From a virus: a DNA stretch of 37,832 bases. The stretch covers positions 1-37,832 of IMG/VR virus record IMGVR_UViG_3300028393_000161; one strand, 5' to 3'. Both the position numbers and the translations under genes were made by a program. Below are positions 5,249 through 33,840 of this stretch, piece by piece (the stretch's first letter is position 1; each line of letters begins with the position of its first letter). The notes under the pieces were generated by a model. The model did not search any database. It saw nothing but the letters and a program-made list of their open reading frames with translations, and was not told the DNA's origin.

Positions 5249-5464
5249 CTAGGCGACTGCTTCTTCTTTTACTATCTCGGCAAGGTCTCGCCCAGTCATA
5301 CCATAAATGGTAATGATCGGTGGAGTGTCTGCGCCCAGGCAAGCAAACACACCAGTGATGTAAGCCTGCTGGTGATTGCCATACTTAATCGTATTGCGTC
5401 CAATTTTATTACGCTTAGCGTAATCTACCCATTGTTGGGCAATGTCTTTAGCTGATACAGTCAT
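5249..5464 (-). CDS. Unknown small phage protein
   Basis: A 71-residue protein that I do not recognise. It begins MTVSAKDIAQQW and has a charged N-terminal helix-like half and a hydrophobic middle (AYITGVFACLG). Two ATGs six bases apart are in frame (5470 and 5464). I choose 5464 because the shared leader GGAGAAATGAGA places the ribosome site about 8 bases from it, the same spacing that is forced in sister genes where the first ATG is out of frame. It has its own promoter and 5' hairpin, and the four-hairpin array lies directly after its stop. Confidence 0.65.
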   Translation of the reverse strand: MTVSAKDIAQQWVDYAKRNKIGRNTIKYGNHQQAYITGVFACLGADTPPIITIYGMTGRDLAEIVKEEAVA

Positions 5465-5518
5465 TCTCATTTCTCCTTTAGATTACATGGGATCACCTGA
5501 TCCCATGTAAGTATTATA
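5465..5518 (-). promoter_or_regulatory. TATAAT promoter with 13-bp leader hairpin
   Basis: The minus-strand -10 TATAAT is at 5518-5513. Two bases later an almost uninterrupted inverted repeat runs from 5510 to 5483 (13-bp arms, 2-base centre), then AAGGAGAAATGAGA and the ATG. The expected transcription start near 5506 lies inside the outer arm, so the mRNA would begin with a roughly 9-bp hairpin. No good -35 element is visible. Confidence 0.7.
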
Positions 5519-5520
5519 CA

Positions 5521-5712
5521 TCAATAATCAAAGTCTTCAGGATTTATATCTTGCAGACTGGTGACCAGACCATCAAAGTCTTCATTCTCTCCCAACATAT
5601 CAGCGAGTGCTGAAACAATAGAGCGATCAAGTCCCATGTTATCTGCAAGATCATCTAAGTAATCTTGGCGATCAGCATAACCATTCATCTCATAAACATT
5701 ATCAATAACCAT
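5521..5712 (-). CDS. Unknown acidic small protein
   Basis: A 63-residue, very acidic protein (MVIDNVYEMNGYADRQDYLD at the start, EDFDY at the end). Unrecognised. Its composition and small size fit an accessory phage protein such as a DNA-mimic or host-binding inhibitor, but there is no direct evidence. Its start is unambiguous because the upstream ATG in the shared leader is out of frame, which makes it the reference for choosing starts in its neighbours. It has its own promoter and strong leader hairpin. Confidence 0.65.
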   Translation of the reverse strand: MVIDNVYEMNGYADRQDYLDDLADNMGLDRSIVSALADMLGENEDFDGLVTSLQDINPEDFDY

Positions 5713-5766
5713 TTCTCATTTCTCCTTTAGAGTACATGGTCTCGGCGAGACCATGTAAGTATTATA
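5713..5766 (-). promoter_or_regulatory. TATAAT promoter with 11-bp leader hairpin
   Basis: The minus-strand -10 TATAAT is at 5766-5761, with a possible TTTACA -35 at 5791-5786 and a rather long 19-base spacer. Arms TACATGGTCTC and its complement (5757-5747, 5743-5733) enclose a 3-base loop. The AAGGAGAAATGAGAA leader and ATG follow. The -10 box overlaps the stop codon of the tiny peptide gene upstream. Confidence 0.7.
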
Positions 5767-5824
5767 CCTCGAACTCAAATAAAATTGTAAAGATAATTAT
5801 CACTAGGATAAACCCTAGGATCAT
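5762..5824 (-). CDS. Tiny single-span membrane peptide (20 residues)
   Basis: ATG at 5824 overlaps the TGA of the gene before it (ATGA). The peptide MILGFILVIIIFTILFEFEV is almost wholly hydrophobic, enough for one membrane span, and ends with acidic residues. Its TAA stop lies inside the TATAAT of the next promoter. A second, similarly placed 22-residue peptide is at 9110-9178, which raises confidence that both are translated. The function is unknown; a holin-like, toxin-like or membrane-signalling peptide could all look like this. Confidence 0.4.
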   Translation of the reverse strand: MILGFILVIIIFTILFEFEV

Positions 5825-6132
5825 TCATCCACCTCTTCCATATCTTCTATAGGGCATTGGACCTTGGCTTGTGGCCAATAAACAATCATGTCATAACCCA
5901 TACTATCAGTATGGGGCGCAGGGATGATTGAAGTGTCAGACCAAATGGTATCCCGGTAAACGGAACGAGCCATCTCATAGCCCAATTCAAATAATGCGCC
6001 CCTGGGGATCTCAACTCCCAGGCAGAGCGAGCCATCCATACCCCTGCCGGAGTAGGAACGAATCGAGTCAACAAAAGAGGTGTTCTCGAGTAACTCGAGA
6101 ATCATGCGTGCAGTGTCATTCATCATCTTCAT
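5821..6132 (-). CDS. Unknown phage protein
   Basis: A 103-residue protein starting MKMMNDTARMILELLENTSF, with an acidic C-terminus (EDMEEVDE). I do not recognise the family. ATG 6132 overlaps the upstream TGA (ATGA), so it is coupled to the 69-residue gene and shares that gene's promoter. A tiny hydrophobic peptide gene follows with the same overlap, giving a three-gene mini-operon. Confidence 0.65.
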   Translation of the reverse strand: MKMMNDTARMILELLENTSFVDSIRSYSGRGMDGSLCLGVEIPRGALFELGYEMARSVYRDTIWSDTSIIPAPHTDSMGYDMIVYWPQAKVQCPIEDMEEVDE

Positions 6133-6338
6133 TCTGTCATCTCTTTCTTGAAGTTAGGGAAATATTTATCTTCGCTCCATTGTGCAAAATGGGTCTCAAA
6201 CAAATCGGCAAAAGCTTCACGCAAGATTCTTGCGTTTGTACTATCTGCACGATAGTAAGCCTGGGCGATTGCATTGGCGAATCCTCCGCCACGCTGTTCC
6301 ATTACTTGTGCTGCTCTGTGACCTTGTTCGTAATTCAT
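6129..6338 (-). CDS. Unknown small phage protein
   Basis: A 69-residue protein (MNYEQGHRAAQVMEQRGGGF at the start) of mixed charge and probably mostly helical. No known domain is seen. I choose the ATG at 6338 rather than 6344 by leader spacing (TAAGGAGAAATGAGA before it). It is first in a three-gene unit with the 103-residue gene and the 20-residue membrane peptide. Confidence 0.65.
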   Translation of the reverse strand: MNYEQGHRAAQVMEQRGGGFANAIAQAYYRADSTNARILREAFADLFETHFAQWSEDKYFPNFKKEMTE

Positions 6339-6391
6339 TCTCATTTCTCCTTAAGTAAGTAAGGGAGTTAACTCCCTTACTTGGTATTATA
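6339..6391 (-). promoter_or_regulatory. TATAAT promoter with 26-bp palindromic leader
   Basis: The -10 TATAAT is at 6391-6386, preceded by TAGTG. A perfect 26-bp palindrome occupies 6382-6357 (AAGTAAGGGAGTT and its complement), then TAAGGAGAAATGAGA and the ATG. The transcript would fold from its first bases. The palindrome could also be a protein-binding dyad. Confidence 0.7.
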
Positions 6392-6400
6392 CACTAGTTA

Positions 6401-6700
6401 TTATTCTTCGTCTTCTATTTCTTCAGGGTTATCAATTGCCCATTGCTCGAGGATGCCACGGGTTAGCTCAAACCAATTTACGTTATTAATAAAATCGTAA
6501 ACGATTCCAGAGATGAAGCCATCATGAGTAAACTCATGGCTGATGCATTCTTCTACGTATTCTTTTACAACGCTGGAAGCTTCGTAAGCTTCTTCCAGTG
6601 TGTAGTGATCAATGCCCAAATCTTGGGCATCCATGCCATCCAAGATTTCAAGATTAGTCTTCCATGTTTCCCAATTGCTCCATCCGTTATAAGTGCTCAT
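6401..6700 (-). CDS. YNGWxNxETW-family phage protein
   Basis: A 99-residue acidic protein opening with MSTYNGWSNWETWKTNLEIL. The 'YNGW-N-ETW' opening is the hallmark of a small-protein family found in many unrelated phages. I know of no assigned function. The C-terminus is acidic (NPEEIEDEE). It appears monocistronic: its own promoter and leader hairpin lie upstream, with an intrinsic terminator of the preceding unit just above that. Confidence 0.75.
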   Translation of the reverse strand: MSTYNGWSNWETWKTNLEILDGMDAQDLGIDHYTLEEAYEASSVVKEYVEECISHEFTHDGFISGIVYDFINNVNWFELTRGILEQWAIDNPEEIEDEE

Positions 6701-6754
6701 TTCTCATTTCTCCTTGGTTCTTGGTCAACGGGTGTTGACCATTTGAGTATTATA
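6701..6754 (-). promoter_or_regulatory. TATAAT promoter with 8-bp leader hairpin
   Basis: The -10 TATAAT is at 6754-6749. Stem TGGTCAAC (6741-6734), loop ACCC, stem GTTGACCA (6729-6722), then CAAGGAGAAATGAGAA and the ATG. The predicted RNA start is close to the AUGG at the base of the stem. No clear -35 element. Confidence 0.65.
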
Positions 6755-6772
6755 CATGAATAAAGAATAAAA

Positions 6773-6791
6773 GGGAAAAATTCTTTTTCCC
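6773..6791 (-). terminator. Intrinsic terminator
   Basis: On the minus strand GGGAAAAA, loop GAA, TTTTTCCC is followed by TTTTATTCTTTATT. This is a stem with a U-rich tail placed after the 101-residue gene and just before the next promoter. Confidence 0.65.
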
Positions 6792-6942
6792 GTGATCCTT
6801 GTGCCAAGGATCACGGAACACGTGAAAAGTTTCACGTGCCAAGGATCAGGGGCGAGGGGGCTAGTTTTACCATACCTGTATAAACAACCAGTAAGTGCCT
6901 AAATATTAGGCAAACCCTTATAGTGATTAGCTATAGGGGTTT
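6791..6942. repeat. Cluster of four more inverted repeats
   Basis: Arms CGTGATCCTTG/CAAGGATCACG (6791-6801, 6805-6815), CACGTGAAA/TTTCACGTG (6819-6827, 6830-6838), TGCCTAA/TTAGGCA (6896-6902, 6906-6912) and AAACCCTTATAG with a one-mismatch complement (6912-6923, 6931-6942). The word CCAAGGATCA appears again at 6839-6848, so it occurs twice beyond its inverted partner. With the terminator, five hairpins lie in about 170 bases after the 101-residue gene. Confidence 0.65.
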
Positions 6943-6970
6943 GTATATCGATAGTTTAGTGCTATAGCTA

Positions 6971-7276
6971 TTAAAGCTCAAAATCTAGGGTATTGCCACT
7001 AAATGGGATCTCTTTACCATCCGCCAAACGCACAAACCAACAATAGTTTTTTTGATAAACCGAAAATTTACCATTGCAAAAATGATTGGCAAATTGATTC
7101 ATTCTTACTTTAGTGGTTCGAGTAAACCAGCCACCCGTATTCAAATGCACTTTACTATCATTTTCGACGCTAGCAACATCCGTTAATTGATAAGTGCCAA
7201 CAAATGTTTTACCCCATGAGCCCTCCAATTTTCTTACACTAGTTGCAACACCTTGAAAGCGATCTAATTTAGTCAT
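6971..7276 (-). CDS. Unknown phage protein
   Basis: A 101-residue, fairly basic, beta-rich protein (GKTFVGTYQLTDVASVEND, later NTGGWFTRTTKVRMNQF). No known domain is recognised. Its leader is a variant, CTGGAGAAATTAGAA, in which the extra ATG is absent, so the start at 7276 is clear. It is a single gene bracketed by its own promoter and a hairpin/terminator cluster. Confidence 0.65.
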   Translation of the reverse strand: MTKLDRFQGVATSVRKLEGSWGKTFVGTYQLTDVASVENDSKVHLNTGGWFTRTTKVRMNQFANHFCNGKFSVYQKNYCWFVRLADGKEIPFSGNTLDFEL

Positions 7277-7328
7277 TTCTAATTTCTCCAGTTAATTAGG
7301 GGAGCCCGTCCCCATGTTTAGTATTATA
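7277..7328 (-). promoter_or_regulatory. TATAAT promoter with short leader hairpin
   Basis: The -10 TATAAT is at 7328-7323, with a possible TTGATT -35 at 7352-7347 (18-base spacer). A 5-bp G/C-rich stem, GGGGA/TCCCC (7313-7309, 7303-7299), follows; it is weaker than in the sister modules. The GGAGAAATTAGAA leader precedes the ATG. Confidence 0.6.
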
Positions 7329-7348
7329 CATGAGGACGGGAGAGAAAA

Positions 7349-7921
7349 TCAAACAATTTCTTTTGCTTTTAACCAGTTGGGAATTTCTTTTAAATTTACA
7401 GGGTTTCGCATAGGCATAACAATGCCAACAAAGCGATCAATACCAATATCAACCAAAGCCGACGATTCGCCATTATGTGCAATTGTTGGTAATTTAGAGC
7501 CATTCAACAATTTAGAGCATTTCACAAAACGCCCAATCAGCTCAGGGTTAAATTGTGCGCTCTCACCAGTTGCGGGTTTTGTAGGTAAAACTCTCATGTA
7601 ATCAGGAAATTTCCCATCTACTGGATTAAAACTAATACCATCAATTGACCAGTTGCCATGCTCATTCGTGGATAAGAAATTATCTTTCTTATCTAACTTA
7701 GCGATGATCTCATTAGGGATGATGATAGAAAATGCTTTTCCCTCATGAGCCGTTTCGCTGATCTGAAATATCCCCAGCAAGTGACCATCAGTTGCGACCA
7801 TGCGGGTATAAGCCCCAGTAGATTCCACCAGTACGCCATTTAAGTAATAACGTATATCTTGCTTCGAAGCCAATACAGCCATTGCTTTCAAACTATCTTT
7901 AGGTAATAAAATTGCTTCCAT
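7349..7921 (-). CDS. Two-domain mini beta sliding clamp
   Basis: A 190-residue protein with clear bacterial DnaN signatures: QDIRYYLNG (21-29), MVATDGH (41-47), FPDYMRVLP (105-113) and VMPMRN (168-173). These match the second domain and the very end of the third domain of DnaN, which is about 366 residues; domain 1 is missing and domain 3 is shortened to about 75 residues. The likely role is a processivity clamp for the phage polymerase, or a decoy that binds host clamp partners. A two-domain subunit could close a ring as a trimer, as PCNA and T4 gp45 do (inference). I choose ATG 7921 over 7927 by leader spacing. It has its own promoter and lies far from the polymerase gene. Confidence 0.85.
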   Translation of the reverse strand: MEAILLPKDSLKAMAVLASKQDIRYYLNGVLVESTGAYTRMVATDGHLLGIFQISETAHEGKAFSIIIPNEIIAKLDKKDNFLSTNEHGNWSIDGISFNPVDGKFPDYMRVLPTKPATGESAQFNPELIGRFVKCSKLLNGSKLPTIAHNGESSALVDIGIDRFVGIVMPMRNPVNLKEIPNWLKAKEIV

Positions 7922-7968
7922 TCTCATTTCTCCTTGTGACTGGCGACATTGCCATAAATAGTATTATA
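7922..7968 (-). promoter_or_regulatory. TATAAT promoter of the mini-clamp gene
   Basis: The -10 TATAAT is at 7968-7963, preceded by TAGTG, with GTCACA (four of six to consensus) 17 bases upstream. The leader can form only a 4-bp stem (TGGC/GCCA, 7941-7954). CAAGGAGAAATGAGA precedes the ATG. Confidence 0.6.
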
Positions 7969-8173
7969 CACTACTTTCTATTTCTGTGACTACAAAATTA
8001 TCCGCAATAATTGCGCCTACTTTCAGGGGCTCTCCATCCATATAAAAGAAAATCTTTTCATCTTCTGCATCTTCTACTTCGTCCCACTCACCTAAGGCAA
8101 CAGTCACTGAAAAAATATTATCAGGTTCATCCTCCCAATAACCCTCACACTCTACAGTTTTATATTTAAGCAT
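7964..8173 (-). CDS. Unknown acidic small protein
   Basis: A 69-residue acidic protein (MLKYKTVECEGYWEDEPDNI at the start, EWDEVEDAEDEK in the middle). Unrecognised. It overlaps the end of the gene before it by 8 bases, with GAGG as ribosome site. The clamp-gene promoter overlaps its 3' end. Confidence 0.6.
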   Translation of the reverse strand: MLKYKTVECEGYWEDEPDNIFSVTVALGEWDEVEDAEDEKIFFYMDGEPLKVGAIIADNFVVTEIESSV

Positions 8174-8387
8174 TTTGGACCTCTACAATTTTAAATTCTT
8201 CTCTTTCGTAAGGACTTGCAATATTTCCGTTGGCAAACGCTTCTTCTTCATCTGCCAAAAAAGAATCTAATTCATTGAGTGCATCTTCAAAAGAATCATA
8301 TAGAGTGGGTTTTCCAGTTTCCCCATCAGACCATGTATTGATCCACCCATCACAAAGTGTGTAGTGTTGTATTTCGTATTTCTTCAT
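8166..8387 (-). CDS. Unknown acidic small protein
   Basis: A 73-residue protein, MKKYEIQHYTLCDGWINTWS at the start, acidic in the middle (LDSFLADEEEAFANG). Unrecognised. ATG 8387 is chosen over 8393 by the leader-spacing rule. The leader here is supplied by the last codons of the preceding 59-residue gene. Confidence 0.6.
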   Translation of the reverse strand: MKKYEIQHYTLCDGWINTWSDGETGKPTLYDSFEDALNELDSFLADEEEAFANGNIASPYEREEFKIVEVQNA

Positions 8388-8389
8388 TC

Positions 8390-8569
8390 TCATTTCTCCT
8401 CACCTAAAAGTTCTACTTCATACATATTCCATTCACCTGATCCATCAATTTCTTTAAAATCTCCACCATCAAGGTCTTTAGCAAAAGCCCATTCGTCTTC
8501 GTCATCTTCTACTTCAAAATCACAATAGAGTTCATAGGTGATCGTTGCATATGCTCTAAACTTTCTCAT
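8390..8569 (-). CDS. Unknown acidic small protein (59 residues)
   Basis: ATG 8569 follows CAAGGAGAAATGAGAA, the shared leader. The protein begins MRKFRAYATITYELYCDFEV and continues with EDDEDEWAFAKDLDGGDF, ending LLGEEK. It resembles its 53-residue neighbour in layout (short beta-like N-terminus, then acidic) but no family is recognised. Its last codons and stop (GGT GAG GAG AAA TGA) form the ribosome-binding leader of the next gene. Confidence 0.6.
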   Translation of the reverse strand: MRKFRAYATITYELYCDFEVEDDEDEWAFAKDLDGGDFKEIDGSGEWNMYEVELLGEEK

Positions 8570-8600
8570 TTCTCATTTCTCCTTGTAAAACTGTATTATA
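8570..8600 (-). promoter_or_regulatory. TATAAT promoter, leader without hairpin
   Basis: The -10 TATAAT is at 8600-8595, preceded by GTAGTG. The leader is only AC-AGTTTTAC followed by AAGGAGAAATGAGAA, with no stem. It shows that hairpin and promoter are separable parts of the module. Confidence 0.6.
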
Positions 8601-8606
8601 CACTAC

Positions 8607-8909
8607 TTATTCAAAATCAGCACTAACTTCTACTCCATGCTCTCTCAGCAAATCAATAGCATGACTACTAATGCTCATTACCCCATCATAGTCACGTAAC
8701 GATCTTTTACCGTTGCGATCAATATCAAACCAAAGCCCAATATGATAAAAGTCTTCTAAACTAGGTAAATCCCATTCAATAAAACCAGTGTCATCTGTAT
8801 TGAAAAACAATTCCATTGTGGATTCATGCTCTCCAGCATCCCTACTGCCCCAAGATCCTTCATAAAACAATTCTGCCTTTACTGTTTTGGTTCCAATTGA
8901 TTCAGCCAT
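8607..8909 (-). CDS. Unknown phage protein
   Basis: A 100-residue protein from ATG 8909 (MAESIGTKTVKAELFYEGSW). An in-frame TTG further upstream gives a longer frame, but the ATG follows AGAGGATGAATAAA with normal spacing, four bases behind the stop of the 53-residue gene. The protein is acidic with beta-like segments (STMELFFNTDDTGFIEWDL). No known family. Confidence 0.6.
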   Translation of the reverse strand: MAESIGTKTVKAELFYEGSWGSRDAGEHESTMELFFNTDDTGFIEWDLPSLEDFYHIGLWFDIDRNGKRSLRDYDGVMSISSHAIDLLREHGVEVSADFE

Positions 8910-8910
8910 T

Positions 8911-9072
8911 TTATTCATCCTCTTCGTTAAATGCTTCAAACTCTAAGTTCATAAGTTCTACATCAATATCATTTTTAAGACACTCAATATAGGCTAGTCT
9001 TTCCGCATCTTCAGGGGTATCTGCATCAATATCCATATTCCATGTGCCTGTTACTGTTACGCTGTATTTCAT
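8911..9072 (-). CDS. Unknown small acidic protein (53 residues)
   Basis: ATG 9072 with TTAAGGAGAAAGT as ribosome site. The protein starts MKYSVTVTGTWNMDIDADTP and continues EDAERLAYIECLKNDIDVEL. The layout 'beta strands, then DxxEDAexlA helix' is common in small phage proteins of unknown function. It is the first gene of a two-gene unit with the 100-residue protein and has one of the best promoters in the island. Confidence 0.6.
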   Translation of the reverse strand: MKYSVTVTGTWNMDIDADTPEDAERLAYIECLKNDIDVELMNLEFEAFNEEDE

Positions 9073-9123
9073 ACTTTCTCCTTAAGTAAGACTGTATTAT
9101 ACACTACTTTTATTCCCCGTCAA
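9073..9123 (-). promoter_or_regulatory. Sigma-70-type promoter
   Basis: TTGACG (9123-9118), 16-base spacer, TATAAT (9101-9096), with TAGTG just before the -10. No leader hairpin. It lies in the gap between the tiny membrane peptide and the 53-residue gene. Confidence 0.7.
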
Positions 9124-9178
9124 GAAAATCTAATAAAACCCAAAAAGCCATAAACCCAAGTAGAACGACAAAAATCAT
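9110..9178 (-). CDS. Tiny single-span membrane peptide (22 residues)
   Basis: ATG 9178 overlaps the TGA of the 214-residue gene (ATGA). The peptide begins MIFVVLLGFMAFWVLL and ends DFLDGE: one hydrophobic span and an acidic tail. It closely parallels the 20-residue peptide at 5762-5824 in length, composition, coupling and position before a promoter. Function unknown. Confidence 0.4.
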   Translation of the reverse strand: MIFVVLLGFMAFWVLLDFLDGE

Positions 9179-9819
9179 AGAGCCCCCACAGTAGATCCAG
9201 CGTAAGCACTCGCATAGATAGCACGTTCAGCACCTTCGATTAGTTCTACTGCCCCATACTCCCAGTCAGTCGATTCATACATCCCGCAACCCTCGTCATA
9301 AACCTCTTCACCATCACGATAAGCCTTTACAGAGATAAACACATAATGCCAATCACCGTTTATAAAACCTTCAAAATGCTTTATCTCCCGCTTGACAGAC
9401 TCTAGTGCCAAACGATCAGCATAGGATTTACCAGACTTAGTACCTGAAAAATCCTTACGAGCCTTAGCTAATGCTTCTGCAAAATTATAGTAATAGTTTT
9501 CACGACCATAACTACGTAACTGGACGTTGCCATTGCCTGCGTGTTCTGCATAACGTTGCATAGGTTCCACTGTTCCCCATCCTTCGCACCACCCCCAAGG
9601 GGTCTCACCCCACTGCTCGGTCTCAATTCGCAAAACAACTGAGCATCCTTCAGGCAATCCCTCGAGTTCAACCTCCTGCCCTGTTTCATAGTTGTAATAA
9701 TTGGTAAGACCAAAACTCTCAGTCTTGATTAAACCTTTAGCAATCAAATACGACTGCCGTACATTGGTGCTGTGCTCTTTACGAACTTCTTTGTAAGTCT
9801 TTAGTAATAATTTATCCAT
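9175..9819 (-). CDS. Unknown phage protein
   Basis: A 214-residue protein, the largest of the accessory island. It opens MDKLLLKTYKEVRKEHSTNV and has a W/G/E-rich middle (ETPWGWCEGWGTVEPM). The C-terminal half is beta-rich (HYVFISVKAYRDGEEVYDEG). No catalytic motif is evident and I do not recognise it. It is coupled to the CxxC protein: the end of that gene (GGG GAG AAA TGA) is its ribosome leader. Confidence 0.65.
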   Translation of the reverse strand: MDKLLLKTYKEVRKEHSTNVRQSYLIAKGLIKTESFGLTNYYNYETGQEVELEGLPEGCSVVLRIETEQWGETPWGWCEGWGTVEPMQRYAEHAGNGNVQLRSYGRENYYYNFAEALAKARKDFSGTKSGKSYADRLALESVKREIKHFEGFINGDWHYVFISVKAYRDGEEVYDEGCGMYESTDWEYGAVELIEGAERAIYASAYAGSTVGAL

Positions 9820-9822
9820 TTC

Positions 9823-10005
9823 TCATTTCTCCCCTAATTGGTTACATTCACAATCAAAACAAACGTAGTCATTGTCTACATCACACTGACTACAGCCTAC
9901 TGTTGGGACTAACTCATTCCCTGATTCATAAAAAGCATCTATTCTGTGTCGCCTGTAAGCAAGCCACTCATCCGAAGTCATCTTATCTATGTCTTTGTAT
10001 TCCAT
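9823..10005 (-). CDS. Small CxxC zinc-finger-like protein
   Basis: A 60-residue protein whose C-terminal part has VGCSQCDVDNDYVCFDCEC, two CxxC pairs about 10 residues apart, a typical small zinc-binding ribbon. The N-terminal half is helical (MTSDEWLAYRRHRIDAFYES). A zinc-binding or nucleic-acid or protein contact role is likely; the partner is unknown. ATG 10005 is preceded by AGAAAGGAGCAGT. Confidence 0.65.
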   Translation of the reverse strand: MEYKDIDKMTSDEWLAYRRHRIDAFYESGNELVPTVGCSQCDVDNDYVCFDCECNQLGEK

Positions 10006-15222: not shown

Positions 15223-15655
15223 GGTTGTAATACTTTAACCATCGATGTTGTAAATAATCCTCAATCAAATATCCAAAGATATAACAGTCATCACCATCCG
15301 GGAAAGCCTTACGCATCCTGCCTTCCAGGGTGAAACCAAATTTTGGCGCAATCTGCAATGCTGTTGTATTACTGCCTCTAGTAGGGCCCGTGAGCCGTGC
15401 TAAGTTAAGCTCGCCAAATGCAAAAAAGAATGCACGAGAAATAAATTCTTTACTAAAACCATGTCTACCAGGAACAGCAGCGTAGTGTATACAGGCGCTA
15501 TACACATTAACGTCAGAGAAAACAAACACAGCGGTAAATTCCCCTGCATCATTTACTTTAGAAAACGTGAGACATCGACCACATGGGCCTTCCAGGTTCA
15601 TCCGAGAACGTGCCCAGGCCAGGGCTTCTTCATGACGCTCACACCCAATAATCAC
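15209..15655 (-). CDS. GNAT-family acetyltransferase
   Basis: A 148-residue protein with the GNAT core: strands TAVFVFSDVNVYSACIHYA (41-59), helix GFSKEFISRAFFFAFGEL, strand ARLTGPTRG and the C-terminal motif SNTTALQIAPKFGFTLEGR (95-113), in which 'N..A....kfGF..EG..R' is typical. It should transfer an acyl group from acyl-CoA; the acceptor is unknown (protein, small molecule or modified base). Start GTG 15655 overlaps the polymerase stop (GTGA) with GGGGAGAA as ribosome site. Confidence 0.75.
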   Translation of the reverse strand: MIIGCERHEEALAWARSRMNLEGPCGRCLTFSKVNDAGEFTAVFVFSDVNVYSACIHYAAVPGRHGFSKEFISRAFFFAFGELNLARLTGPTRGSNTTALQIAPKFGFTLEGRMRKAFPDGDDCYIFGYLIEDYLQHRWLKYYNLAQS

Positions 15656-17517
15656 TTTGCTTCTCCCCAGGAGGGCCCAATTTCTACGTCCACACGACTT
15701 GGTACTTCAAGGCGTACAGCCTCGATCATAATTTGCGCTGCCTCTTCTGCCTCTTTCTTATCCTTCATAGAAAGCGCTACCTCATCGTGCACTTGCAGCA
15801 AAACTCGGTAGCCTGCCTTGTGCAACGCCACCATGCTTGCTTTGGTTTGATCAGCTGCAGAGCCTTGTATCAACTTGTTTAAACCTTTGTAAGTATAGGC
15901 ACGCTTGATTCTTTGGCCATACTTAATGATTGCCTCATCATAGGGCAATGCCTTATTGACTCCCCACTCCATTGGCTCCCACAAAGGGAAACGGCACTTA
16001 CGTCCAAGCAGGGTACGAATCGTACCATTGGCCGCCTGGTGATCAATACGCTTCATCACTGCATTCACAGTGCCTTTTAGGAATGGGACGTTAAGGTGAA
16101 ACTTACGAATCAACGCATCTGCTTCTTCCATCTCCAGGCCAAGGCTTCCTGCCATTTTGGACTTGCCCATGCCATACATAAGACCTAAGCCAATAGTCTT
16201 GGCCTCCTTACGGGACACGCCTGCCATGTCCGCCACCATTTGATGGAAGTCAGTACTGTCATCATTCTTATATCCTTCAGCTGCTTCTTCAGCTCCTGGT
16301 AAGTTAAGCAGGGAAGCGTAGTGGACCATGATCCGTGGTTCTTGCTGCGAGAAGTCATTTGCTGCCCACAACTGCCCTTCCTCAGGTAAGAAAAGGCTCC
16401 GAACGAGAGGTCCGATTACTTCGTGACGGGCGGGGACCTGCTGCAAGTTGGGGTTAGCCATAGACAACCGCCCAGTAACCGTACCACCATCATCGGAGCG
16501 TAACTGGTTGACGTGCGGGTGAATCCGCCCATCTTTTTCTGAGTAACCTAAGTAAGGTTCCAAAAAGGTCCCATGAGTCTTATTAACTTCACGAGCCTCA
16601 ACAATCATCTTAGCTACAGGGTGTTCTACGTTATCCAAGAACCCTTTAGTAAAGCTTGGAGCGCCTGCACTAGTCTTGTGATAAGGAATATTTAATGTAT
16701 CAAAGGCCTTGGCAATTGAATCAGCGGCCCAGATTTCTACGTCCTTACCAACAATACGTTTAAGTTCTTTATGTAATTCTTTTTCACGTTTTTTAAATTG
16801 ATCTATTAACTGCACACACTTTTCTCGGTCAAAGCGAATGCCCTGGAAAGTCAAGTCAATGAGCACCGGCAAAAGGTCAGTCTCTAAATTAAAGATAGAC
16901 TCTAATTCTTCCTTACGTATCAAGGGCTTGAAGTGCTGGTAAAGCTTTAAGGTCAGCATAGCATCTTGTTCAGCATAGTCACCAACATACATTGCCGGGA
17001 GTTTCCACAACTCTTTCTTAGGGTGCACACCAAAGTCAGATGCAGCCTGCTTTAAACCTACCTCGGATTTAATTTCCTGCAAGTAATCAAATCCCAGGGA
17101 GTTCAGTGAGAATGAGAAACGATTCTCATCTAGCAGCGGAGCAGCCAACATGGTATCGATGATACGACCATTGATTGTATAGCCTGTAGCCTTAAGCCAG
17201 CCTACGTCGTAGGCGGCGTTGTGCATGATCTTATCTGCTGGTGTGGCTAAGACATCCTTTATCCATTTTTCAACCATGCGTCTATCAAGATTCCCACCAC
17301 CAGCGTGAGCAACAGGATAATAACCAGCCCACCCGTCCACAGCAACAGCATAGCCAACAATGTATCCGTCAGTCCTGGGCCAACCAGGTCCATAAGACTC
17401 CATGTTGGGATCACAAGTTTCCAAGTCAATTGCTATCTCCTTTGCATCAGTTAAGTTAGGAAAACGATCAGGTGGAATCCACTCCACCTGAACAGGGAAT
17501 AAGGGCATTGTTGCCAT
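15652..17517 (-). CDS. polA: DNA polymerase, family A, with 3'-5' exonuclease
   Basis: About 621 residues. Exonuclease domain: IAIDLE (Exo I), HNAAYDVGWL (Exo II), YAEQD (Exo III). Polymerase domain: TGRLS, motif A DFSQQEPR, motif B RKEAKTIGLGLMYGM, motif C QVHDE; all catalytic acids are present. There is no 5'-3' exonuclease domain, as in T7-like phages, and the length is shorter than T7 polymerase. I chose ATG 17517, just after the upstream TGA; a GTG at 17526 in frame is an alternative. Replicative enzyme of the phage. The processivity factor is not obvious here; the mini clamp is a candidate. Confidence 0.95.
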   Translation of the reverse strand: MATMPLFPVQVEWIPPDRFPNLTDAKEIAIDLETCDPNMESYGPGWPRTDGYIVGYAVAVDGWAGYYPVAHAGGGNLDRRMVEKWIKDVLATPADKIMHNAAYDVGWLKATGYTINGRIIDTMLAAPLLDENRFSFSLNSLGFDYLQEIKSEVGLKQAASDFGVHPKKELWKLPAMYVGDYAEQDAMLTLKLYQHFKPLIRKEELESIFNLETDLLPVLIDLTFQGIRFDREKCVQLIDQFKKREKELHKELKRIVGKDVEIWAADSIAKAFDTLNIPYHKTSAGAPSFTKGFLDNVEHPVAKMIVEAREVNKTHGTFLEPYLGYSEKDGRIHPHVNQLRSDDGGTVTGRLSMANPNLQQVPARHEVIGPLVRSLFLPEEGQLWAANDFSQQEPRIMVHYASLLNLPGAEEAAEGYKNDDSTDFHQMVADMAGVSRKEAKTIGLGLMYGMGKSKMAGSLGLEMEEADALIRKFHLNVPFLKGTVNAVMKRIDHQAANGTIRTLLGRKCRFPLWEPMEWGVNKALPYDEAIIKYGQRIKRAYTYKGLNKLIQGSAADQTKASMVALHKAGYRVLLQVHDEVALSMKDKKEAEEAAQIMIEAVRLEVPSRVDVEIGPSWGEAK

Positions 17518-17518
17518 A

Positions 17519-17668
17519 TCAGTCACTGCCTTTTCTTAATAGGTCCAGTTTTTTAAGTAATCGTTCGACTACATCATTGTTGATGGTTTGTTCACGAATC
17601 TCTTGTTCTAACTTCCATAACACTTTTATTTCTTTTAACAGGTCTACAATTTTCTCTTCAAAATTCAC
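17519..17668 (-). CDS. Small coiled-coil protein (49 residues)
   Basis: GTG 17668 overlaps the helicase stop (GTGA), with AAAGGA upstream; its TGA lies directly before the polymerase ATG. It starts MNFEEKIVDLLKEIKVLWKL and runs on as one charged helix with hydrophobic heptads (ERLLKKLDLLRKGSD at the end). Position between helicase and polymerase suggests a small replisome partner, but this is context only. Confidence 0.5.
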   Translation of the reverse strand: MNFEEKIVDLLKEIKVLWKLEQEIREQTINNDVVERLLKKLDLLRKGSD

Positions 17669-31810: not shown

Positions 31811-33840
31811 TATTTAGCCTTCTTTTCTAAAGCGTGCATCATGCGATAAAGTTTTTTAGCACCTTCACGACGACTGCCGTTACCTGCGCCACGTACTGCT
31901 CTTGCTGTAACTACAAATTCTCCATCAGACAACATTGCTGGAATTGAATCGGAAGTACCTGTTCCAGGTCCACTAATGCCACCGGTACGACGAGGGTAAA
32001 TTTCAGATATACCACCTTGAGCATACACACGAGGCATGAAGTTATACATTGTAGCTGTATTATAAGGTTGCTGAACAGGGGGCTGCCCTTGTGGAACATA
32101 TACTGGATTTTGAGGAGACGTATAGTTTGTGTAAGTGTTTCCGCCATACGTAGGAGTATTTACAAGGTTAGCTTGTGTAGTAGCAGGCATAGGTGAGTTG
32201 TATCCAGGGAGGTTTGATACTACATACTTACTTGGATCTTTATTAATTAAATCTTGGCCTGTAACAGGAGAACCGTCAGGATTTCTATCTACTAATCCAG
32301 GGGATTTAGGTGTTGTTGGGCTAAAACCTCCAGTTAAAGCACCAATTCCCAACACTCCGGCTCCTATAGCTGGAAGGCTATAGCCTCCTTCTTTGTTCAT
32401 AAATACGCCAGGGTTTTTTGGATCAGTACCAAATAAATAATCCTTGCCCTTAGTGTAATAATCGTTTGCTGTTTCACCAAAAGTTTTAGGTGTTGTTTGT
32501 TCACCCCTAAAGATACCTTCCCCTGAACGAGCCTGGGGTTGCATATCTTGATTCATGTACTGCTGATCTGACGCAGTTGGACTGTATGGAGCTTGTAAAT
32601 TACTGTTTCCAGTAGTATCAAAATCCCTAGAGAATTGTGGAGCCTGTAAGTTTGTATTTCCAGCCGGAAGATTGCTAATGCCTTCACTCGTAGGTGTAAT
32701 TGCACCACCCTTATTGGTAATGTTTACAGCCTGTTCATTAGTACCTGGGGTATTAGTAGTACCTGCATTAACGTCACTGCCAAAGGGTGTAGAGTTATCT
32801 GCTACGATAGGAGCATTGTTAGTAGGGGCAGGGGCATTCATAGTTGCACCGTTTGCTGCAGAAACTCCCCCAGCGGTAACACCAGCTATTGCACCGGTTT
32901 TTAATGCTTGACCAATACTTTGCCCAGTTGCTAAGCCATAGCCCGTACCTACCACACCTGCAGTAGCGGCTGTATTTAACCAACCTCCTGTTGTCCCTGG
33001 AAGGTAATCTGCTATACCTGCACCAATACCAGCTAACGCACCACCAATAGCGGCAGAACGTAAAGAGTCTTTAAGGTTTGAGCCACCCGCTAAAGAAACA
33101 GCGCCGGAAGCTAGAGCACCTGCTGCCATAGCGCCACCAATTGGTCCTAAAGCAGCAATTGCTGTCGGTCCAATGACCATGCCCAAAGCAACGGTTAATA
33201 CAATCTTACCAACGGTTGAAGATGCTACGGACTTAATGGCATCACCCACCGAACTAAAGGCATCACCAATAGCTTTAAGTGGATTGCCTTTAAATTCCAT
33301 AATTCCTGTAGCAGGGTTAATGGTTCCAGAACCGCCCATAGCCTTAAGCATGGCAGCTTCTTGGGGATTGATGTGAGCTAAAATGGTGTCACCACCACGG
33401 CCTTTAGCGGCTAAAGATTGCGCTGCAGCGGCTAGTCCGCCCTGAGCAAAGCCTTGCGGCTGTGGCGCTTGGGCCATGGGACTTGCTCCACCTTGCCTTT
33501 TTAACGCCTCTTGGACCATCAAAAGCATCGTAGTCAGGTAACCACGATCAAACTGCTCTGGTAAATCTTCAGGGCGAACGTTGCCTTCAGTCATCAATTT
33601 TTGACGAATTTGCGGATATTCCTGCTCATGAGAAAGCATATATTGCAGGATTTGCAACATCATTTGCAATTGGTCAGGGGGCAGATTTAGTTGTGAGCTG
33701 ACCTGATCCATAGTCTGATCATAGGCTTGTTCTGCTCCTGGGATACGCTGTCCAATAGACTGCTTAATCAGATTAATATCAGGCTCTGCAGACTGATTTT
33801 CAGGAGCTTGGGGTAGAGTTGCGATTCCTTCTTGGGCCAT
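31810..33840 (-). CDS. Virion protein with GG motifs and 'DSIPAMLSDGEFV' C-terminus
   Basis: A 676-residue protein from ATG 33840; the longer frame would start with TTG inside the preceding gene. A helical N-terminus is followed by FAQGGLAAA, GDTILAHINPQEAAMLKAMG and GTINPATGIMEF (shared module), then a long G/A-rich hydrophobic region (about 190-300). Near the end are YAQGGISEIYPRRTGGISG and SDSIPAMLSDGEFVVTARAV, a C-terminal block common in phage structural proteins. Membrane-active ejection or tail role inferred. Confidence 0.7.
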   Translation of the reverse strand: MAQEGIATLPQAPENQSAEPDINLIKQSIGQRIPGAEQAYDQTMDQVSSQLNLPPDQLQMMLQILQYMLSHEQEYPQIRQKLMTEGNVRPEDLPEQFDRGYLTTMLLMVQEALKRQGGASPMAQAPQPQGFAQGGLAAAAQSLAAKGRGGDTILAHINPQEAAMLKAMGGSGTINPATGIMEFKGNPLKAIGDAFSSVGDAIKSVASSTVGKIVLTVALGMVIGPTAIAALGPIGGAMAAGALASGAVSLAGGSNLKDSLRSAAIGGALAGIGAGIADYLPGTTGGWLNTAATAGVVGTGYGLATGQSIGQALKTGAIAGVTAGGVSAANGATMNAPAPTNNAPIVADNSTPFGSDVNAGTTNTPGTNEQAVNITNKGGAITPTSEGISNLPAGNTNLQAPQFSRDFDTTGNSNLQAPYSPTASDQQYMNQDMQPQARSGEGIFRGEQTTPKTFGETANDYYTKGKDYLFGTDPKNPGVFMNKEGGYSLPAIGAGVLGIGALTGGFSPTTPKSPGLVDRNPDGSPVTGQDLINKDPSKYVVSNLPGYNSPMPATTQANLVNTPTYGGNTYTNYTSPQNPVYVPQGQPPVQQPYNTATMYNFMPRVYAQGGISEIYPRRTGGISGPGTGTSDSIPAMLSDGEFVVTARAVRGAGNGSRREGAKKLYRMMHALEKKAK

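Follow-up and report, generated by a model that had tools for sequence, protein, structure and literature searches.

The bacterial sliding clamp DnaN is also known in a short form, the E. coli beta-star protein, a UV-inducible dnaN product described in work of the 1990s that has no domain 1, retains the whole of domain 3 (mass about 26 kDa) and has been reported to form a trimer. The clamp can also be a target of phages, as gp168 of the Staphylococcus phage Twort is a sliding-clamp inhibitor that binds the host clamp itself and has no homology to clamps. T4 gp45 and PCNA belong to the same superfamily as DnaN and have fewer domains per subunit. Sliding clamps are six-domain rings, and two-domain subunits trimerise (PMC9690074).

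The small clamp-like protein described here, hereafter the mini-clamp, is encoded in the window, that is, the whole stretch of 37,832 nucleotides of viral DNA that was analysed (IMG/VR record IMGVR_UViG_3300028393_000161). It shares with E. coli DnaN (PDB 1mmi/6fvl) a homologous fold, the same client pocket and loop II, but it counts 190 residues instead of 366, is devoid of domain 1, of the first half of domain 3 and of the interface residues, has the position of K198 reversed in charge and carries an extra C-terminal tail. Domain 1 is absent from both beta-star and the mini-clamp, whereas only the latter misses half of domain 3. As with gp168 (complex 7evp), a phage product would here disturb the clamp system of the host, although gp168 targets the clamp whereas the mini-clamp would compete for the clamp's clients. 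In contrast to gp45 and PCNA, which have two full domains and form rings, a trimer of the mini-clamp cannot reach six domains. The proteins of PHROG 3007, including BcepC6B gp31, Bcep781 gp15 and Shigella phage EP23 p08, belong to the same family, with the compact layout and the pocket; these phage proteins are about 25-35% identical to the window protein, and several stop at MPMR[L/T], with no tail.

A previous sequence-only reading of the window had placed a gene of about 190 residues at 7349-7921, and this gene was confirmed on the minus strand, with its own Shine-Dalgarno sequence and promoter. The open reading frame listing begins at the ATG at 7927 (7349-7927, 192 amino acids), yet the likely start is the ATG at 7921, which gives 190 amino acids, because AAGGAG is placed 8 nt before it. 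Residue numbers nevertheless follow the 192-residue count from 7927.

7349..7921, minus strand: coding sequence of the putative pocket-only clamp (open reading frame, Shine-Dalgarno spacing, start in the relatives L002 and L020, PF02767, AlphaFold pLDDT 92.6).
7930..7935, minus strand: Shine-Dalgarno AAGGAG, 8 nt upstream of the ATG at 7921, from the sequence.

The DnaN blocks that had been read in the protein (RYYLNG, VATDGH, FPDYMRVLP and VMPMR) are each present, and the homology to DnaN holds beyond chance at the level of both sequence and structure. In particular, the window protein matches the Pfam family DNA_pol3_beta_2 (PF02767) with E = 4e-10 and the solved E. coli beta in the PDB with about 7e-13 over beta residues 141-254, while Foldseek gives 8e-11. 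The match to PHROG 3007 reaches E = 2e-31, and the PADLOC models of anti-phage defence proteins gave no match to the mini-clamp.

With regard to architecture, both alignment and model bear out the absence of domain 1 and of part of domain 3. The protein is nonetheless not the two-domain clamp that had been proposed, as it comprises 1.5 clamp domains, the C-terminal part corresponding only to the second half of domain 3.

7574..7921, minus strand: counterpart of the complete beta domain 2, residues 3-118, with two beta-alpha-beta-beta-beta half-modules (alignment, PDB match, model).
7406..7558, minus strand: counterpart of the C-terminal half of domain 3, residues 124-174 (E. coli residues about 317-365).

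The alignment to E. coli beta runs through domain 2 and resumes only in the C-terminal half of domain 3, the first half of that domain (E. coli residues about 252-316, which include I272, L273, E298 and E304) being missing. Beyond this gap, FNPELIGRF of the window protein pairs with FNVSYVLDV of E. coli (from residue 319 on) and VMPMR with residues 361-365; the true DnaN of Pseudohongiella nitratireducens, which reads FNVSYLLDV...SSALVE...VVMPMRL, is nearly matched by FNPELIGRF...SSALVD...IVMPMR in the window. The domain 3 half was assigned by MAFFT alignment, by the motifs FN..Y/L and VMPMR and by structural superposition, whereas profile-profile alignment, used by itself, reached domain 2 and missed this half. 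In agreement with the assignment, the AlphaFold model of the window protein, built on 59 sequences (pLDDT 92.6), contains the beta-alpha-beta-beta-beta half-modules of the clamp fold: a first one with strand 6-9, helix 10-17 and strands 31-36, 41-46 and 50-57; a second one with strand 66-71, helix 72-76 and strands 82-87, 93-95 and 98-100; and a third one with helix 128-142 and strands 148-150, 157-160 and 166-170. Superposition by VIA-align places model residues 1-175 on E. coli beta 123-366 (168-169 residues, 2.5 A, 28% identity, Z 15.8), with Z values of about 16 against beta clamps. A second model, of the member L090, which is about 34% identical, has a pLDDT of 91.4 and superposes 178-179 residues on 126-366 (Z 17.5). 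As two divergent models agree, the layout of 1.5 domains can be regarded as a trait of the family. PF02767 is matched by all 59 aligned members, PF02768 by none and PF00712 by one, weakly. Thus, the mini-clamp has neither the three complete domains of a functional DnaN clamp nor the two complete domains per subunit of a PCNA or gp45 trimer.

Conservation in this compact protein centres on the pocket for the clamp-binding motif, whose residues (subsites I and II) were taken from a 2024 review (PMC11139829). All 18 positions have an aligned column in each of the 59 viral relatives, and the equivalents of R152, L155, G174 and P242 are invariant.

7835..7858, minus strand: DIRYYLNG, residues 24-31, loop II and the counterparts of pocket R152 and L155 (both 59/59); columns also used as search patterns.
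7775..7795, minus strand: ATDGHLL, residues 45-51, counterparts of pocket T172, G174, H175, (R176) and L177 (G174 59/59, H175 53/59, T172 51/59).
7709..7711, minus strand: E73, at the position of the beta pore lysine K198, D or E in 51/59 relatives.
7589..7615, minus strand: GKFPDYMRV, residues 105-113, counterparts of pocket P242 (59/59), R246 (53/59) and V247 (V or I in 59/59); columns also used as search patterns.
7406..7417, minus strand: MPMR, residues 171-174, counterparts of pocket M362-R365 (M362 57/59, P363 58/59, R365 49/59).

Across the 59 sequences, the pocket columns are more conserved than the other columns (P = 5e-7). Since the relatives had been collected with patterns spanning two pocket blocks, the test was rerun without those columns, and the difference was still significant (P = 3e-5). 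The pocket is also retained in isolate phages, and the window protein departs from it at R176 (L), Y323 (L), V344 (S) and V360 (I). Quite different is the condition of the ring. The seven interface residues checked (I78, F106, I272, L273, R103, E298 and E304) all fall in deleted stretches, so that the head-to-tail dimer interface is lost, and the basic DNA-contacting pore is altered, with E73 of the window protein in place of K198. In beta, K198 makes contact with DNA and shows 98% similarity among bacteria, while D150 and R152 are required for the viability of E. coli (PMC5042465); the counterparts of the latter two are retained in the mini-clamp family. Some basic helix positions (K14 and K136) are retained as well, as is the DNA-contacting loop II, so that some contact with DNA is conceivable.

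Past the end of beta, many members of the family continue for 13-39 residues.

7352..7405, minus strand: tail past the end of beta, residues 175-192, with the family motif P-x-W-[AL], here PNWL.

Tails with P-x-W-[ALVCI] occur in 16 of 38 sequence clusters as compared to 7 of 244 control clusters, and C-termini ending in -AA in 14 of 38 as compared to about 10 of 244, the controls being other open reading frames of the same contigs, some of which are probably not real genes. The tail could serve as a further binding motif, and C-termini in -AA are reminiscent of ssrA-type degrons; the window member, which carries PNWL, terminates in KEIV and not in -AA.

The region upstream of the gene presents, in order, AGTAGT-GTATAATACT, a weak hairpin and the Shine-Dalgarno sequence.

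7960..7969, minus strand: GTATAATACT promoter element (TATAAT -10), from the sequence; a unit repeated in the window.
7941..7954, minus strand: 5' hairpin TGGC(AATGTC)GCCA, between the -10 element and the Shine-Dalgarno sequence (-5.2 kcal/mol as compared to -2.1 for shuffles).

The promoter that had been called private to the gene does exist, but it is not unique, as the GTATAATACT unit stands before about nine neighbouring genes. With one mismatch allowed, GTATAATACT occurs 13 times in the window against 2.7 expected, mostly on the minus strand and directly before single accessory genes; for the minus-strand stretch 5249-10005, elements are found at 5510, 5758, 6383, 6746, 7320, 7960, 8592, 9093 and 10034. 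The roughly nine single accessory genes have a near-identical GTATAATACT, mostly together with a AAGGAGAAATGAGA-like Shine-Dalgarno sequence, and in several units a strong hairpin lies between the two (up to -17.5 kcal/mol as compared to about -2 to -4 for shuffles), whose sequence varies by gene while its position and shape are constant. The same arrangement of promoter, hairpin and Shine-Dalgarno sequence is found in the related contigs L002, L003, L020 and L022. The mini-clamp is thus one unit in a set of promoter-driven accessory genes, which we infer to be early genes. Close to it, at 6401-6700, lies a gene for a DUF7249 protein (PF23907).

The family extends well beyond the window. Indeed, 243 phage records match the mini-clamp, and a pattern search of IMG/VR yielded at least 538 confirmed stretches; its members are mostly 30-40% identical to the window protein, and all 59 that were aligned have one layout. 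Each of 30 carriers examined has one clamp-like gene, with no second, full clamp in the sequence examined. In Bcep781 the mini-clamp is a lone gene that runs against the structural module, and in EP23 it is one of two genes that oppose it. When genome contigs were scanned for closely related genes in bacteria or prophages, the true dnaN of Pseudohongiella nitratireducens was the sole match, and the matches listed from the plasmid collection were mostly dnaN genes or unannotated chromosome-sized records, with a few short homologues; one of these, of mini-clamp length, lies at 32168-32680 of a 71.5-kb plasmid of Acinetobacter sp. WCHA55 (NZ_CP032280.1). A 1394-residue phage protein annotated as 'large polyvalent protein-associated' (BFVD A0A6J7W9M3) shows a weak structural match (E 1e-6, TMq 0.41) and possibly holds a fused copy of the mini-clamp.

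In public annotation, the family is present as 'DNA polymerase III beta subunit' or, in PHROG 3007, as 'RusA-like Holliday junction resolvase'. The identity with a RusA resolvase found no support, as a Pfam scan carried to E = 10 yields DNA_pol3_beta_2 only, and the RusA-like label on PHROG 3007 appears to be a misannotation. A note on Bcep781 gp15 reads 'DNA Pol III b subunit fragment', and a separate rusA is present in this phage as gp22. For BcepC6B gp31 (L012, 7986-8573), the annotated start at 8058 removes the conserved N-terminus, the homologous frame being open further upstream. Collectively, the family is real, conserved and compact and is already in databases, and no study dedicated to it was found among the openly licensed papers searched.

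The relation of the mini-clamp to phage DNA synthesis bears on what its pocket may serve. A strict link with a phage polymerase was not borne out in either direction. The search in carriers covered family A polymerases; such a polymerase is present in 20 of 30 carriers, a raw count from which no enrichment is claimed, while Acinetobacter phage Ab9, Klebsiella phage RSU-F4K5 and Pseudomonas phage USP_25 yielded none. Conversely, four complete genomes with a related polA (DSL-LC04, HTVC023P, MW2 and PaMx11) have no mini-clamp. Both observations support independence from a phage family A polymerase. The proposed location outside the replication block holds in the window, where polA lies at 15652-17526, but not in Burkholderia phage BcepC6B and in the record G018, where the mini-clamp directly follows polA. 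The window polA shares about 75% identity with the polA of Phage DSL-LC04 and 52% with that of the pelagiphage HTVC023P, and the 61-kb size of these two genomes suggests that the 37.8-kb window record is incomplete.

In parallel, a phage protein with a canonical motif was considered as the ligand of the pocket and rejected. The pentameric clamp-binding motif Q[LIMV]x[LM][FL] is absent from the predicted window proteins (0 against 1.7 expected), and the looser hexameric form, found at chance level (2 against 1.5 expected), is confined to two large products of the structural module. Neither form is present in the family A polymerases from 19 carriers, a set that includes partial sequences (0 against 2.6 expected together). 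Thus, no phage protein stands out as the one served by the pocket; as these motifs are degenerate and a scan may miss ligands, this is only suggestive of host proteins as the ligands.

Different explanations can be set against these data. The rule that two-domain clamp subunits trimerise had led the sequence-only reading to consider a homotrimeric ring like that of PCNA, which is disfavoured here because three subunits of 1.5 domains give 4.5 domains and not six, domain 1 is wholly gone together with the interface half of domain 3, and the charge at K198 is reversed to D or E in 51 of 59 relatives. The two-domain trimer was rejected on architecture, that is, the 1.5 domains and the deleted interface, and a PCNA-like ring is accordingly very improbable. 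That the protein is shorter than DnaN would also fit a decaying, functionless remnant of a captured dnaN, but this is scarcely credible for a gene with a good promoter and Shine-Dalgarno sequence, found in at least 538 viral stretches, with one layout in the 59 aligned sequences and a selectively conserved pocket; conservation among members that are mostly 30-40% identical to the window protein contradicts it.

Instead, the mini-clamp could raise the processivity of the phage family A polymerase or tether it, either with no closed ring involved or as an oligomer of some other type. The polymerase found in 20 of 30 carriers, the order polA to mini-clamp in BcepC6B and G018 and the lack of a second, full clamp would all fit a polymerase partner, whereas the 19 polymerases free of the canonical motif, the four polA relatives devoid of the gene and the distance of about 8 kb from polA in the window, where the gene sits among accessory genes, make it unlikely. 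Somewhat unlikely, too, is a positive use of the pocket as an adaptor that recruits one host client (such as delta, ligase, Pol I or Hda) to the phage DNA or replisome rather than titrating it. Conservation of both pocket and loop II would be accounted for in this way, as would the frequency of the gene in phages with their own PolA, at times adjoining polA, and the P-x-W tail could bind a phage partner; on the other hand, the gene occurs in phages with no detected family A polymerase and has no fixed partner gene, the commonest same-strand neighbour, the DUF7249 protein, being found at 14 of about 76 analysed loci in a count that includes some open reading frames that are probably not real genes. 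Two further points count against the reading favoured below, as a phage ligand with a non-canonical motif would also be expected to give pocket conservation, and the window is a fragment, outside which further phage ligands may be encoded.

The reading that we favour, with about even confidence, is that of a ring-incompetent, pocket-only derivative of DnaN whose partners would be clients of the host clamp, for which it could be a sink or an adaptor. It rests on the logic of a pocket that is kept and a ring that is lost, by which clients would be bound without being held on DNA, and on precedents with beta itself: the monomeric mutant I272A/L273A has an affinity for delta about 50 times that of the dimer, yet is unable to sustain processive replication (PMC11139829), and a modest overexpression of beta slows the growth of E. 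coli (PMC4045847). The monomeric decoy of the sequence-only reading thus survives in a modified form, and the conserved pocket, the absence of the canonical pentameric motif from phage proteins and the accessory promoter set lend it indirect support. According to this model, a DnaN cut down to its client-binding pocket, formed by domain 2 and the C-terminal half of domain 3, would be expressed from a promoter of its own, as a member of a set of single-gene accessory units, and would most likely act as a monomer or, at any rate, in a form other than a DNA-encircling ring. Its pocket would be offered to host clients such as the delta subunit, Pol III alpha, Pol II/IV/V, Hda, MutS/L and ligase, which would be drawn off the host clamp, and host replication and repair would likely be weakened or redirected.

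More broadly, and tentatively, the family may represent a widespread and unrecognised natural class of pocket-only clamps, in which the pocket, kept away from DNA, would serve to capture replication and repair proteins of the host; in members that end in -AA, this capture may be coupled to turnover driven by ClpXP. Such a reading would also correct how the phage genes of this family are publicly annotated, many of which now carry the name of a polymerase subunit or, in error, that of a RusA resolvase. The presence of family members in laboratory phages of E. coli K-12, such as the Escherichia phages 'rolling' and TheodorHerzl, makes the question directly testable. If the favoured reading is true, the mini-clamp would provide a small soluble pocket domain for testing clamp-binding peptides and drugs. 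It would also mean that phages compete for clamp clients using the docking site of the host clamp itself, detached from the ring, which would represent a second mode of attack on the clamp hub beside inhibitors such as gp168.
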